DNA from: Deltaproteobacteria bacterium
GTDB taxonomy: Bacteria > Desulfobacterota > Binatia > Binatales > Binataceae
Reading direction: 5' to 3'
DNA length: 64,000 bases
Assembly: GCA_021831785.1 (NCBI GenBank)
Contig: JAKBMB010000025.1
Span: 1-64,000 of the forward strand
Both the position numbers and the translations under genes were made by a program. The notes below the pieces were generated by a model. That model made no database searches. It saw nothing but the letters and a program-made list of their open reading frames with translations, and had not been told where the DNA came from. This document shows positions 4,641 through 28,695 of this stretch, piece by piece (positions within the stretch are counted from its first letter, which is position 1; each line of letters begins with the position of its first letter).

Positions 4641-5060
4641 TCATCGCTCCGCCGGCGCTTCGCGAAGGCGTCCGTTTGACTCCATCAGGGGACAGAGTTG
4701 GTGGTCGGTCCGGGCTGCCGGCCGTTTGCGCACCAATGTGCGCAGTTGGTGGGCAAGCGCTTCGAGCTCACGAATCCTGCGATCGACGTCTTCGAGACGA
4801 CGGCGGGCAAGTTCCTGCACGCGACGGCACGGCTGCTCGCCCCGGCCGGCAAGCTGGAGCAATTCCTTTATCTCCGCGAGCGTCATGCCGAATGCCTGGG
4901 CCCGCTGTATAAAGTTCAACCGCCCGAGCGCGTCTTTGCTATAGACGCGATAGCCGTTGGGAAGGCGAGAGGGACGTGGCAGGATGTGATGGCTTTCGTA
5001 ATAGCGAATCGTAGAGGCTCGAAGACCCGCCTCTCGCGCAACTTTGCCAATCGTCAACAT
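4641..5060 (-). CDS. MerR-family heavy-metal-responsive transcriptional regulator
   Basis: A 139-residue MerR-family regulator. The N-terminal winged helix-turn-helix is intact (LTIGKVAREAGLRASTIRYYE, then RxxNGYRVY), followed by a dimerisation coiled coil at about residues 75-110. Metal-site residues are C78 (EQPCRR) and C123 in the HxxCPLME loop, the arrangement of Zn/Cd/Pb/Hg-type members. The third Cys of true MerR is not seen. It is the last gene of a minus-strand cassette whose promoter (6336..6367) has the long-spacer palindrome bound by such proteins, so autoregulated activation of that cassette is the likely role. I prefer the ATG at 5060; a GTG at 5069 is in frame. Confidence 0.88.
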   Translation of the reverse strand: MLTIGKVAREAGLRASTIRYYESHHILPRPSRLPNGYRVYSKDALGRLNFIQRAQAFGMTLAEIKELLQLAGRGEQPCRRVQELARRRLEDVDRRIRELEALAHQLRTLVRKRPAARTDHQLCPLMESNGRLREAPAER

Positions 5061-5165
5061 GGCTCGCACCTATGCAAAATCTCAATTTATGTGCCCACCA
5101 CACCTTACCTGGACAGCGCTGAACCACGAAAGTTCGCTGTCGAGTAATAAACCGGACGTATGAGA

Positions 5166-5205: not shown

Positions 5206-5352
5206 TCAGCCGACTTTCTTCATTTCCTTTCCGCAACAGCATCGGGGGGCGTATGTGCCGCGGCAGCCGGGGTCGGCGCCCTTGGTCACCTCGATTGCAC
5301 AGCCGCAGTTCGGATCCGGACACTCATATTTTTCCCCTTTTACTAATGGCAT
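5206..5352 (-). CDS. 48-residue Cys-rich, metallothionein-like small protein
   Basis: An ATG at 5352 is preceded by a near-perfect Shine-Dalgarno (AAGGAGGTGAATCGAC), and the frame runs 48 codons to a TGA at 5206-5208. The product has seven Cys: C11, C16, C18, C30 and the triple C38-C40, in CPDPNCGC and APRCCCGKEMKKVG. The clustering suggests binding of a soft metal, as in short zinc-ribbon or metallothionein-like proteins found in metal-resistance loci. It lies between the fused MerT-like protein and merR, all on the minus strand. A role as a cytosolic metal scavenger or chaperone is inferred from composition and neighbours only. Confidence 0.8.
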   Translation of the reverse strand: MPLVKGEKYECPDPNCGCAIEVTKGADPGCRGTYAPRCCCGKEMKKVG

Positions 5353-5403: not shown

Positions 5404-6012
5404 TCAAAAGCCCATTACCAGCGGCAGCACGTAGGCCACGCTGAAGCCCGCAAGCCAGATCGCCGCCGAGCACCACACTGCGACGCGGCTGAGCCTGCTC
5501 ACTGTGTTACAGGCGCTCAGGCCGTCGATCCCGCAGGTCACGCCCCGCGCGCGCAATCGCGGCGCGACGCCGTAGACGTAGACGAGGTTGCCTAAAATGA
5601 GCGCGCCCGCAAGCGCAAAGACCAGCTTTTTGTGATGTGAAAGCGCCACCAGCCAAGAGACGTTCGAGACCAATGGCGCCCAAGTTGCTCCGAGCCCGAG
5701 CATCACGAGCGCCAGCGGGAGCGCGCAGCACAGAATCGTTCCGAGCGAAGTGAAAAGCGCCGGCACCGATAGCGAGACCTGCAGATCGGGCGTGATTCCG
5801 TATGCCAGCATGGTGCGGAACATGCTCCCGGAGCCCGCTCCGCCTCCCGTTCCCATAAAGCTCGTATCGAGGCTCCATCCGTCTTCAACGTTGGTCGGCG
5901 TGCTAAGTCCGAACACCGGACCATGGCCGTTGGCCAAGGCCGCGCGAGGCCCCATGAGCAGCACGCACAATCCAACAAGAAACGCCGTCTGGTCCGCTCT
6001 TCTAGTTGTCAT
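5404..6012 (-). CDS. Chimeric protein: outer-membrane-type N-terminus joined to MerT-like transporter
   Basis: A 202-residue protein with two unlike halves. Residues 1-28 form a signal peptide (TAFLVGLCVLLMGP, cleavage after ALA). Residues 29-88 (ANGHGPVFGLSTPTN, then GWSLDTSFMG and MLAYGITPDLQVSLSVP) resemble the start of a beta-barrel outer-membrane protein often seen in metal-resistance clusters. From residue 89 the sequence turns into a MerT-like inner-membrane protein: LGTILCCALP with the vicinal Cys pair, several hydrophobic spans, a loop with CGIDGLSAC, and a final span near AYVLPLVMGF. The barrel is cut short, so this looks like an in-frame deletion fusion of two adjacent genes. Upstream codons to 6270 overlap the MerT-like gene; ATG 6012 gives a proper signal peptide. 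Confidence 0.72.
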   Translation of the reverse strand: MTTRRADQTAFLVGLCVLLMGPRAALANGHGPVFGLSTPTNVEDGWSLDTSFMGTGGGAGSGSMFRTMLAYGITPDLQVSLSVPALFTSLGTILCCALPLALVMLGLGATWAPLVSNVSWLVALSHHKKLVFALAGALILGNLVYVYGVAPRLRARGVTCGIDGLSACNTVSRLSRVAVWCSAAIWLAGFSVAYVLPLVMGF

Positions 6013-6035: not shown

Positions 6036-6329
6036 CTAAAGCCGCAACCACCAAAGCAGGGCAACCATCGCGGTTGACCACCACACAATCCACTTCGACC
6101 AGCGCGGCCCGTGGCCACGCCACGCGCTCAGATAGAGAGCGCGCAACATGAACCCGATCGAGGCGCCGAGCAGGACGTACTGCGGCCATCCGGCGAGCCA
6201 TCGCCACGCCGCCATCGCAAACCCCGCTAGCCCGAGCAGGGAAAGCATCGCCGGCAGAATTCAGCGCCACGGCAGCGCAGCCGCCACGGCGCCGAGACCG
6301 AGATCTGCGATGTCCCTGAGCCCGCCCAT
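6036..6329 (-). CDS. MerT-like membrane protein with in-frame TGA (candidate selenoprotein)
   Basis: Read through one TGA (6261-6263, codon 23), the frame from ATG 6329 gives 97 residues. Segment 1 is MGGLRDIADLGLGAVAAALP. The join then reads WR-TGA-ILPAMLSLLGLAGF, followed by a GWPQYVLLGASIGFMLRALYL span and a last WWSTAMVALLWWL span. MerT-like proteins read CCxxP followed about six residues later by LGLxxF. Here the TGA falls on the second Cys (R-TGA-I-L-P), with Pro, Leu-Gly-Leu and Phe in register. A possible SECIS hairpin lies 14 bases downstream (6226-6246). The alternatives are a nonsense mutation or a start at ATG 6248, but that ATG has no ribosome binding site. The promoter places the transcript start near 6329, so translation may be leaderless. 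Confidence 0.6.
6226..6246 (-). promoter_or_regulatory. Possible bacterial SECIS hairpin after the MerT-like TGA
   Basis: On the minus strand, 14 bases after the TGA, GCU and AGC pair outside, CCC and GGG pair inside, and a 2x2 internal loop (UU/CU) lies between them. The apical loop is UGCUC. The apical loop sits about 22 bases after the UGA, within the range known for bacterial SECIS elements. The structure is weaker than the one in fdhA and lacks the single bulged U. Confidence 0.35.
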
Positions 6330-6335
6330 GCAGCG

Positions 6336-6367
6336 AGCCTAGACCTTGAACCTAGGTTTAAGGTCAA
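6336..6367 (-). promoter_or_regulatory. MerR/ZntR-type promoter-operator of the metal cassette
   Basis: On the minus strand a -35 box TTGACC (6362-6367) and a -10 box TAGGCT (6336-6341) are separated by 20 bases, the over-long spacer typical of MerR-family activated promoters (19-20 bp). The spacer is filled by a 22-bp dyad at 6343-6364 (half-sites ACCTTAAACCT and AGGTTCAAGGT, one mismatch). The predicted transcript start is at or within a base or two of the ATG at 6329. Confidence 0.8.
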
Positions 6368-6769
6368 CACCGCACGGACCGCTCTGCGCGCTGCGCTATT
6401 TCGCAATGAGCGGCCTATCGCCGGCCTTTGAGCGAGCGCCACTCGCCGAACCGCCGCCCGCCCGGCCGCTCCGTCAGGTGACCCTCCGTTAGCAAAAGCC
6501 GGTCGAAGGCCGCCTCCTTGTCCCGTTGGCATGAGGGGCGCTCATTGCAGACAACAACAGCTCGCCGCAGCCGCCGGGCGCCTTGCGCGTGCCGGATTGC
6601 CGAGGGAAAGCATTGCGCGGGCGACGATCGCCGGTTGCCTTCAGAGCCGTTAGAGGTTAAGGCGCCTTTGCATTTGGAGGCGACATCATTTAGTCTGGCT
6701 ATGCGTAAAGGGCCGTTAGGTTTCAAAACGTTGTGGAAAAAAAATGACACAAGGGCGCGGATTTCGAAC

Positions 6770-7234
6770 ATGAAAGAACGAGCCTGGGTTAGCGTGGTTT
6801 GGCGCGGGATGGGCGCGATCGCCGTCGTCGCCTGTGTGCATGGGAAAGCGTGGGCGCTCCAATCGCGTGGCTGCGTGACGATTGCGGATTGCCGGGTGGC
6901 GGCATTTAGCGCCCCTGAGGGTCGCAAACCGCCGGCGTTGCAGCGTATAGCTCAGGCCCAGCCGGGGGGTCTTTTATCTGGGCACGTGACCCAACCGGCG
7001 CAGTCCGGCGCGATCGAAGTTGGATCGCAGCCTCGTGAGGGCCTTCTCGCAGGCGCGCCCAACGCCGCAACCAGCGCGGCCGAGGTGCAAAGCCAGGTTG
7101 TCCCCGAGCCGGGCCAGCCGCCACGCGGCCTGTTGGCCGGCGCGATCAGAGGAAATGAAGCCGCGCCTGGAGGAACGGGCGTTGCTGCGCCGTCCGGCCG
7201 CGGCCTGCTAGCAGGCGCGATCAGGGGAAATTAA
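6770..7234 (+). CDS. Secreted low-complexity protein with GLLAGA repeats
   Basis: A 154-residue protein of unknown function. Residues 1-29 form a signal peptide (basic MKER, hydrophobic GAIAVVACV, cleavage after AWA). The mature part is Ala/Gly/Pro/Gln rich and carries four copies of a short motif: GGLLSGH (66-72), REGLLAGAPN (89-98), RGLLAGAIRGN (119-129) and RGLLAGAIRGN at the very C-terminus (144-154). The last two are encoded by near-identical 35-bp direct repeats. An in-frame extension upstream to 6518 is not protein-like, so I chose ATG 6770. The motif could be a processing or binding repeat, but no function is known to me. Confidence 0.6.
   Translation: MKERAWVSVVWRGMGAIAVVACVHGKAWALQSRGCVTIADCRVAAFSAPEGRKPPALQRIAQAQPGGLLSGHVTQPAQSGAIEVGSQPREGLLAGAPNAATSAAEVQSQVVPEPGQPPRGLLAGAIRGNEAAPGGTGVAAPSGRGLLAGAIRGN
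7124..7233 (+). repeat. Direct repeats encoding RGLLAGAIRGN
   Basis: Two near-identical 35-bp copies at 7124-7158 and 7199-7233 differ mainly at synonymous or third positions (ctgttggcc versus ctgctagca). This suggests that selection keeps the peptide rather than a recent DNA duplication. A diverged third unit encoding REGLLAGAPN precedes them near 7034-7065. Confidence 0.7.
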
Positions 7235-25629: not shown

Positions 25630-28600
25630 TCAAGCCCTCTCGACGTTGACCAGAAAAGCCTTGGTTTCCGGCGTCTGAGTGTTGGCATCACCAACACAAG
25701 GAGTCAGCACGTTAGCCGGGAAGCCCTTGCGAGTAAGCCCGGTGAAACCCCAGTGGATGGGGATGCCGACGTGTTGGATCACCTTGCCGTTGACCGTCAG
25801 GGGTTTGATGCGCTTGGTCACCACCGCCACTGCTCTAATCCGTCCGCGCGCGCTGGTGACGATGATCTCGCCCCCGTTGACGATGCCTTTTTCCGCCGCC
25901 AATTGCTCGGAGATCTCGACGAACTGCTGCGGCTGCAAAATAGCGTTGATCAGGCAATGCTTGCTCCAGTAATGGAACAACTCGGTGAGGCGATAAGTCG
26001 TGCCCACGTACGGGAACTCCGAACTGTTCCCAAGTTCGCTGTGGTCGTCCTTGTAAACGCGCGCCACCGGGTTGGTGACCACCTTAGGATGAATCGGATT
26101 AGTGCCAAGCGGCGTCTCAAACGGCTCGTAATGCTCGGGGAACGGGCCGTCCTTGACGAAGGCACGGCTAAACAGGCGACCCACGCCCTCGGGATGCATG
26201 ATAAAGGGTCCCATGTCCTTGCTGGGCGCGGCGGTAGGAACGTAGTCGGGCACGTCAAGCCCGACCCACTTCGTGCCGTTCCAATGGATTAGCGGGCGGT
26301 TAGGGTCCCACGGCTTGCCGTTAGCGTCGCAGGAGGCGCGATTATACAGGATTCGCCGGTTGGCCGGCCACGAGAAAGCCCACCCCGGCACCAAGCCGCG
26401 GTCCCCCGGGTCATGGGTCTCGCGTCGCGCCATCTGGTTGCCCTTCTCGGTCCAGCAGCCGCTGTAAATCCAGCATCCGCAGGCGGTGCTGCCGTCGTCG
26501 CGAAGCTGGGCGAAAGTCGCGAGCTGCTGACCTGCCTTGACCAGCACCTTGGTCGGATCCTGCGGGTCCTTTACGTCCGTGATGGCGTAGCCGTTAAGTT
26601 CCCGCGCCAGCTCAGCCGGCATGGGCCGTTCTGGGATCAGATAAGGCCAGTGCAAATTCAGAATCGGCTCGGGAAAGACGCCGCCTTCCTTGCGATAAAG
26701 CTCGCGTATCCGCAAAAACAGCGCCGCTATGATGTCAATGTCGGTGCGCGCTTCGTCCGGCGGGTCTTGGCCCCGATAGTGCCATTGTAGCCAGCGCGAA
26801 CTATTGGTCAGCGAGCCCTCGTCCTCGGCAAAACAGATGCTGGGCAGGCGAAAGACCTCGGTCATTATCTTGGAGCTGTCCGCGGGATTGTATTCGCCGT
26901 GGTTCTCAAAAAACGCCGAGGTTTCCGTAGCCAAGGGATCGATGACGACCAGAAATTTGAGCTTGCCGAGCCCGGCCAGCGTTTTGGCCTTGTTGGGCGA
27001 GGCTTGCAGCGGGTTGAAGCCCTGGCAAATGTAGCCGTTCATCTTGCCCTGGACCATCAAATCTTGCACCCGCAGCATGTCGTATTCGTGGTCCACCCGG
27101 TCAAGCTTCGGCAGCCACCCATAACCGTAATCGTTCTCTTTGGTAGCGGCCGGTCCGTACAGCACCTTCATCAGACTGACGAAGAACTTTGGGTAATTAG
27201 ACCAGTAATTGAGCTGCCCTGGCCGTAGCGGCTTGGGCGTCCGTTTGGCCAAGTAAGTCGCCAGATTGGGCTCGGCGGCGGCCGGCAGAGTCAGATACCC
27301 CGGCATCAGATTACTCAGCAGCCCCAGGTCGGTGAGACCTTGAATATTGGAATGGCCGCGCAGCGCGTTAAGTCCCCCGCCGGACATGCCGACATTGCCC
27401 AGCAGGAGCTGGATTATAGCCATGCAGCGGATGTTTTGCGTCCCCACGCTGTGGTTGGTCCAGCCCAGTGCGTACAGGCTGGTCATCGTACGGTTGAGGG
27501 CGGCGGTGGAGGCGATTAGCTTACACACCTCAAGGAACTTGTCCTTCGGCGAGCCAGTGACGTTTACCACTACCTCCGGCGTATAACGGGAGTAGTGCTG
27601 CTTCATTAGCTGGAAGACGCAGCGCGGATGCTGCAAGGTCTCGTCCACTTGGACGTAGCCGTCCGGCCCGAGCTCGTAGTCCCACGTGCTGTGGTCGTAT
27701 TCGCGTTTGTCGGAGTCGTAGCCGCTAAACAGCCCCTCGGAGAAGCCGAATCCGTCCTTGACGATAAAGGAGGCGTTGGTGAAGGCTTTGACGTATTCGT
27801 GCTGGATGGCGTCCTTGGTCAGCAGGTAGTTGATCACGCCGCCTAGGAACGCGATGTCGGTGCCGGCCCGAAGCGGCACGTAAACGTCCGCCACCGCCGC
27901 GGTTCGGTTGAAGCGCGGGTCAACGACGATGAGTGTCGCCTTGTTGCGCGCCTTGGCTTCAATCACCCACTTGAAGCCGACCGGATGTGCCTCGGCGGTG
28001 TTTCCGCCCATCACCAAGATAACGTTCGCGTTCTTGATGTCGATCCAGTTATTGGTCATCGCGCCACGGCCGAATGATGGGGCCAAACTGGCCACCGTTG
28101 GGCCGTGTCAGACGCGTGCCTGATTGTCAAACCCTAGGATGCCTAGGCTGCGAACCGTCTTGAAGGTGAGGAAACCCGCCTCGTTGGTCGAAGCCGATGC
28201 CGCGAGCATGCCCGTGGTCAGCCATCGATTAACGTCTTCGCCCTGTGCATTTTTAGCCACGAAATTGCGGTCGCGGTCTTCCTTCATCAGATGCGCGATG
28301 CGGTCGGTCGCCCAGTCCCATGACACGCGCTTGAAGCCGCTCTCGCCCGGCGCTCGATATTGAGGATAGAGCAGCCGGCTCGGGCTGTGGACGAAATCAA
28401 GAAGTCCCGCGCCCTTCGGGCACAGACTGCCGCGGCTCACGGGATGGTCCGCGTCGCCCTCGATGTGCATAATCGAGGCGCGATTGTTCTGGGCGCGGTC
28501 GCCAAGACTGTACATGATCACGCCGCAAGCAACCGCGCAGTAAGGGCACGTGTTTCTGACCTCGGTCGTGCGTGAAAGCTTGAATTCACGCACCTCGGCC

Positions 28601-28695
28601 ACGGCCTCGGCAGCGGGAAACCCCAAGGCCGCCATGCTGGAGCCTGCCAGAGCTGCCCCGCTCAACTTAAAGAATTGGCGCCGGCTCAATTCCAT
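25630..28695 (-). CDS. fdnG: Selenocysteine formate dehydrogenase catalytic (alpha) subunit
   Basis: A 1021-residue Mo/W-bis-MGD enzyme that oxidises formate in the periplasm. The TAT signal is SRRQFFKLSG. The [4Fe-4S] Cys motif is NTCPYCAVACGV. The frame contains one TGA (28108-28110) at codon 196, in NQARV-TGA-HGPTVASLAPSFG. That is exactly where the E. coli FdnG selenocysteine sits (196), so the TGA is Sec, not a stop, and the two flanking open frames are one gene. A SECIS hairpin follows (28079-28096). The rest carries the usual molybdopterin blocks (RGAMTNNWIDIKNANVILVMGGN, LNALRGHSNIQG). GGGGGAG precedes the ATG. fdhB, fdhC and fdhE follow. Confidence 0.96.
28079..28096 (-). promoter_or_regulatory. 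SECIS element of fdhA
   Basis: Eleven bases after the TGA the minus strand reads GGUGGCCAGUUUGGCCCC: GG pairs with CC, a single U bulges, GGCC pairs with GGCC, and the apical loop is AGUUU with the GU step. The bulged U and loop GU are the features SelB recognises in E. coli formate dehydrogenase mRNAs. Confidence 0.9.

Follow-up and report, generated by a model that had tools for sequence, protein, structure and literature searches.

Does the in-frame TGA of a MerT-like gene in this deltaproteobacterial DNA specify selenocysteine (Sec), and if so, what kind of metal transporter results? The window, i.e. the whole 64,000-nucleotide stretch that was analysed, contains a short membrane-protein frame in which a TGA stands where MerT proteins have the second Cys of their metal-binding pair. 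We consider, with a probability of about 0.68, that this UGA (6263–6261) is read as Sec in a MerT-type (RC607-like) transporter, which is MerR-controlled and translated from a probably leaderless message.

6036–6329, minus strand: MerT-type frame of 97 codons with an in-frame TGA (assigned by frame, codon usage and homology with the relatives L123 and L129)
6261–6263, minus strand: TGA proposed to encode Sec, aligned with the second Cys of CCxxP in MerT (TGA in the same column in relatives)

Reading frame and coding signal

The frame extends from the ATG at 6329 to the TAG at 6038–6036, and the TGA is its sole interruption, at codon 23; the sequence-only reading had said as much without stating that the gene is on the minus strand. 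A further in-frame TAG (6341–6339), located within the promoter, closes the frame on the upstream side and therefore leaves ATG 6329 as its only ATG start. The read-through product is MGGLRDIADLGLGAVAAALPWR-U-ILPAMLSLLGLAGF...

Using a codon-usage model trained on 32 long ORFs of the window, we found that this frame is the best of the six on both sides of the TGA, in agreement with the earlier claim that coding character continues across it. The 22 codons before the TGA score +0.29 per codon (true coding on average 0.29; off-frame 95th percentile 0.29) and the 74 codons after it +0.22 per codon (true coding on average 0.31; off-frame 95th percentile 0.23). Taken alone, each half has a score that about 5% of off-frame sequence reaches.

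Before the TGA comes CGC (Arg) in place of the TGC or TGT of relatives, and the window protein contains no Cys at all, reading P-W-R-U and R-U-x-x-P around this site. The putative Sec is thus its only chalcogen ligand besides Met. With Arg in the place of the first Cys and no Cys elsewhere, the protein has no two-thiol Hg site of the usual kind, a point against the Sec reading; the sequence-only reading, whose Sec-MerT interpretation is supported by the data below, had noted this Arg but had not weighed it. A structure model built without an alignment places helices at residues 3–18, 24–46, 49–70 and 75–96 with low confidence (pLDDT 68.5), and a Foldseek search of this low-confidence model against the PDB gave no fold match.

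Relationship to MerT

The window protein matched no family in Pfam or NCBIfam (including PF02411, NF033560 and NF045683), and direct searches of viral contigs, species genomes, plasmids and the PDB found no relative. Neither the genomes of the class nor an 84,980-species collection contained a close homologue. This and the lack of a family match count against the Sec-MerT reading. Matches within the class at E values of 0.006–0.5 were judged to be chance similarities of hydrophobic stretches, and BLASTP against a Sec-MerT protein of the class gave an E value of 0.15 with the motif not properly aligned. A direct MerT assignment with a profile of class MerT proteins was rejected, as the score was not separable from shuffles once the TGA residue was masked; it depends on the disputed residue, and such an assignment is therefore circular. 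The window's second MerT (5404–6012) was also dropped as a parent of the TGA gene, their similarity not being above that of shuffles.

The link that avoids this circularity runs through two other proteins. A profile made from three TGA-bearing MerT-type proteins of the window's own class was used to search 395 genomes of the phylum and found L123 and L129, from another family in the phylum, without any use of the window protein.

L025:1477–2049, L027:1477–2043 and L029:589–1155: the three profile members, MerT with a C-terminal CusF-like domain and a TGA at the second Cys of CCxxP

L123 and L129 have 96 residues and read MKEK...AYAFC-UGA-QLPLVLAGFGLGSF...GKTGPW...GILYGTT. Their own membership of the family is firm: L123 scores 50.8 bits against MerT (none of 2000 shuffles as good), or 36.4 bits with both Cys masked, has an hhalign probability of 97.7%, and matches the MerT model NF033560 over residues 2–95 with an E value of 6e-11 (1.5e-10 for L129). 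Against L123, the window protein gives z = 7.1 relative to hydropathy-preserving shuffles, and z = 5.5 with the TGA residue masked (one of 1000 shuffles as good). Against a two-sequence profile of L123 and L129 it scores 11.9 bits (0/2000 shuffles), falling to 7.9 bits when masked (2/2000), and among 22 MerT-like sequences aligned with the window protein these two outrank the other 20. The homology runs across the TGA, covering residues 13–88. When viral contigs were scanned with a three-sequence alignment, nothing was found. On these sequence comparisons, the window protein appears to be a divergent MerT-type member, linked to the family via L123 and L129 only.

The TGA column in relatives

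We then compared the disputed column across 49 MerT-type hits, 18 from a PF02411 search of the class and 31 from the phylum-wide profile search; a few are common to both searches, so that 49 is a number of hits and not of independent genes. Five carry an in-frame stop (L025, L027, L029, L123 and L129), in every case TGA and in every case at the second Cys of CCxxP, and none of the 49 has TAA or TAG. Nearly all of the other hits have Cys there. The local motif is S-V-C-U in L025 and L029, S-I-C-U in L027 and C-UGA-x-x-P in L123 and L129. These data support the earlier proposal that the TGA takes the place of the second metal-binding Cys in a protein of MerT type: the homologues have either TGA or Cys at the position, and no other stop codon.

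Selenocysteine decoding and the SECIS-like hairpin

The genome (3.68 Mb in 34 contigs) has a complete Sec system, all four of the genes that the sequence-only reading had proposed looking for being present: selA (582 bits), selB followed by selD on one contig, with an in-frame TGA in selD itself, and selC (tRNA-Sec) with the anticodon tca. The formate dehydrogenase gene, which had been taken earlier as evidence of Sec decoding, does contain a genuine Sec TGA and is proof of such decoding internal to the window.

25630–28695, minus strand: formate dehydrogenase alpha subunit (fdhA), Sec TGA at 28105–28107, context ARV-U-HGPT
6222–6241, minus strand: apical hairpin of a SECIS-like structure following the TGA of the MerT-type gene, 7 bp, loop CGGGCU, with outer pairs from 6246

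The predicted hairpin does exist at 14 bases past the TGA, with its first pair at +15 and the loop 26 nt from the TGA, and the 45 nt downstream of the TGA fold at −14.3 kcal/mol. It lies within the published limits for bacterial SECIS elements, namely a loop of 3–9, a stem of 4–16, a spacing of 16–37, an MFE of −7.5 or lower and a G in the first two loop positions (PMC13188914). This is a weak test, since 18% of the window's 1585 TGAs lie within the same limits; an equally stable hairpin follows 1.4% of them. L123, L129, L025 and L027 also fall within the limits, with a spacing of 22, as does the genome's selD with a spacing of 17, and the hairpins of L123 and L129 have a G-first loop. The spacing of 26 in the window, compared with 17–22 in selD and most relatives, counts against the Sec reading. 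L029 and the TlpA-like genes beside L123 and L129 fall outside the limits, and the SECIS model is therefore neither strict nor complete.

Promoter and translation start

6336–6367, minus strand: MerR-type promoter/operator, TTGACC-20 bp-TAGGCT, an imperfect dyad (identified by its match to the element in G009, a deltaproteobacterial MAG)

This element is identical at 24 of 32 bases with that of G009 (L012:3443–3474), which has the equivalent position upstream of a related operon, and no other site in the window comes within 11 mismatches of the G009 element. The distance from the end of the window element's −10 to ATG 6329 is 6 nt, and the message of the TGA gene is therefore probably leaderless, beginning at the AUG, which would account for the lack of a Shine–Dalgarno sequence at 6329. 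The alternative ATG at 6248 likewise has no Shine–Dalgarno sequence, as had been reported, and a message beginning at AUG 6329 favours the start at 6329 over that at 6248.

Operon structure and comparison with G009

5404–6012, minus strand: fusion gene, outer-membrane protein start joined to a MerT-like protein with CCxLP
5206–5352, minus strand: 48-residue Cys-rich protein, CPDPNCGC ... CCCGK, with a good Shine–Dalgarno sequence and no match in NCBIfam
4641–5069, minus strand: MerR-family metal regulator

The surroundings of the TGA gene are those of a mer-type operon, with a MerR-family gene, the operator at 6336–6367 and an adjacent second MerT-like protein with CCxLP. In Bacillus MerR, Hg is bound by C79, C114 and C123. 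Alignment of the window's regulator with 4ua1 shows that the first and third of these are present and that the middle one is Arg, so the operon's metal may not be Hg. The G009 regulator (L012, from 2715) likewise has two of the three, the middle position lying in an RKRPA stretch common to both.

The related operon of G009 runs from MerR through the operator, an outer-membrane protein (326 aa) and a MerP-like protein with GMD-UGA-AVCAH to a MerT with CCALP. The window operon lacks approximately 1.2 kb of this, and the missing part includes the MerP-like gene, of which a search of the genome found no copy elsewhere. In the fusion gene, residues 1 to approximately 87 are the start of the outer-membrane protein (porin) and approximately 80–202 are MerT-like, the first part continuing in frame into the second; the two parts are 73 and 57% identical with two separate genes on G009 contig C52. 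This fusion could reflect a genuine deletion or a misassembly. The TGA gene sits between the operator and the fusion, where G009 has nothing, and the operon is absent from the other genome of the same genus. The rearrangement and this absence count against the Sec reading.

Several further observations concern the neighbouring gene families. The secreted MerP-like protein with FGMD-UGA-xxCAH, in which Sec replaces the first Cys of the HMA motif, occurs in G009 (L012:4489–5023) and in five Acidobacteria contigs (L062, L063, L064, L065 and L067), placed between the outer-membrane protein and MerT; L094 has Cys instead. The NCBIfam Sec-HMA model NF041115 scores the G009 protein weakly, at 30 bits (cut-off 95). 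MerP-like HMA proteins with UxxC (L025, near 2142) or UxxU (L026, near 1959; L146, near 1600) were also seen, and MerT and MerF-like genes adjoin those of L025 and L026. L123 and L129 themselves lie outside any recognizable mer operon and adjoin, on their upstream side, a frame for a TlpA-like secreted thioredoxin with an in-frame TGA (GTHW-U-WKC), so that the family may serve purposes unrelated to mercury; a sulfate-permease-like gene is found further downstream. In the window, (R)GLLAGA motifs recur in the C-terminal half of the predicted protein at 6518–7234 (plus strand).

Alternatives to a functional Sec-containing transporter

Our main doubt about the TGA gene is whether the window copy is still functional. 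As the operon appears to have lost approximately 1.2 kb, with a porin start fused to the second MerT, the gene may be a decaying one, with an ancestral Sec codon in a copy that is losing its function along with its operon. The Cys-to-Arg change in the metal pair, the loss through the fusion of both the remaining porin and the whole MerP-like selenoprotein gene that G009 retains, and the absence of the TGA gene from the other genomes of the family would all fit this. However, apart from the TGA the frame is unbroken, its codon usage is normal both before and after that codon, the promoter is conserved with G009, and the fused MerT has kept both its CCxLP and its frame; we therefore regard decay as unlikely, though it is the strongest of the alternatives.

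It is less probable still that there is no read-through, the region encoding a 22-codon leader peptide, a 70-residue protein from ATG 6248, or no protein at all. Both halves are short, off-frame sequence reaches such coding scores in approximately 5% of cases per half, and no family model matches the product, but ATG 6248 lacks a Shine–Dalgarno sequence and would lie approximately 81 nt into the likely transcript, and the homology with L123 and L129 runs straight across the TGA. Finally, a single base change turns a Cys codon into TGA, yet a recent TGC/TGT-to-TGA nonsense mutation in an ordinary Cys-MerT with no Sec insertion is very improbable, as the nearest relatives already have TGA at this column, the first Cys has gone too and Sec is decoded elsewhere in the cell.

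Comparison with known Sec-containing MerT proteins

The gene had been put forward as a candidate new selenoprotein, and as a claim about the family this does not hold, Sec-MerT having been on record since at least 2008, when a marine selenoproteome listed both a ‘Mercuric transport protein MerP’ and a ‘putative mercuric transport protein’ (PMC2398784). NCBIfam also holds NF045683, ‘MerT/CopZ fusion-like heavy metal transport selenoprotein’ (MerT_CopZ_Se), and a putative mercuric transport selenoprotein of PF02411, ABB16073.1 of Carboxydothermus hydrogenoformans, is listed with the motif C/SxxU (PMC9312934, 2022; PMC13188914, 2026). Since S-V-C-U or S-I-C-U would be written as SxxU, the Sec of the known family is, judging from the listed motif, probably at the same column as here.

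ABB16073.1 resembles the window protein as a small MerT-type membrane protein with Sec, and its motif fits the S-x-C-U of L025, L027 and L029, whereas the window protein has P-W-R-U without a vicinal Cys and does not reach PF02411. NF033560 (merT_RC607, the short MerT of Bacillus RC607 type) has the same length of 97 and is matched end to end by L123 and L129, but the window protein does not match it directly and has a putative Sec in place of Cys. NF045683 is likewise a curated Sec-containing MerT-type transporter, but it describes a MerT/CopZ fusion of 235 positions and is not matched by the window protein, which corresponds to the MerT part only. The MerT–CusF fusions share the TGA column and, unlike the window protein, keep the first Cys and carry a C-terminal CusF-like domain. 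In a family already known, the new features here are how far this member has diverged, its Arg-Sec pair, its probable leaderless start and the rearrangement of its operon.

Proposed mechanism and significance

In the proposed mechanism, the TGA gene would head a MerR-controlled operon, have its AUG at the 5′ end of the message and encode a 97-residue, probably three-helix MerT-type metal transporter. The ribosome would meet the UGA at codon 23, where the hairpin just downstream would recruit SelB and the UGA would be translated as Sec by means of SelA, SelB, SelC and SelD. The Sec would lie in the first transmembrane helix, at the position of the second Cys of the canonical MerT vicinal pair. 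As the first Cys has become Arg, the metal site would be a lone selenolate, which may capture a soft metal, Hg(II) or one like it, for transfer through the membrane. That the protein is a functional transporter with this lone Sec (Arg-Sec, no Cys), made from a leaderless MerR-controlled message and using one selenolate for two thiols, is a tentative reading to which we would give somewhat less than even odds.

If the gene is translated as proposed, a heavy-metal transporter could work with one selenolate replacing a Cys pair, and, if true, this would allow the reasons for the use of Sec in proteins other than redox enzymes to be tested directly. It would also add to another picture, which the relatives strengthen, of mer-type operons in these bacteria being able to contain Sec in MerT and MerP.
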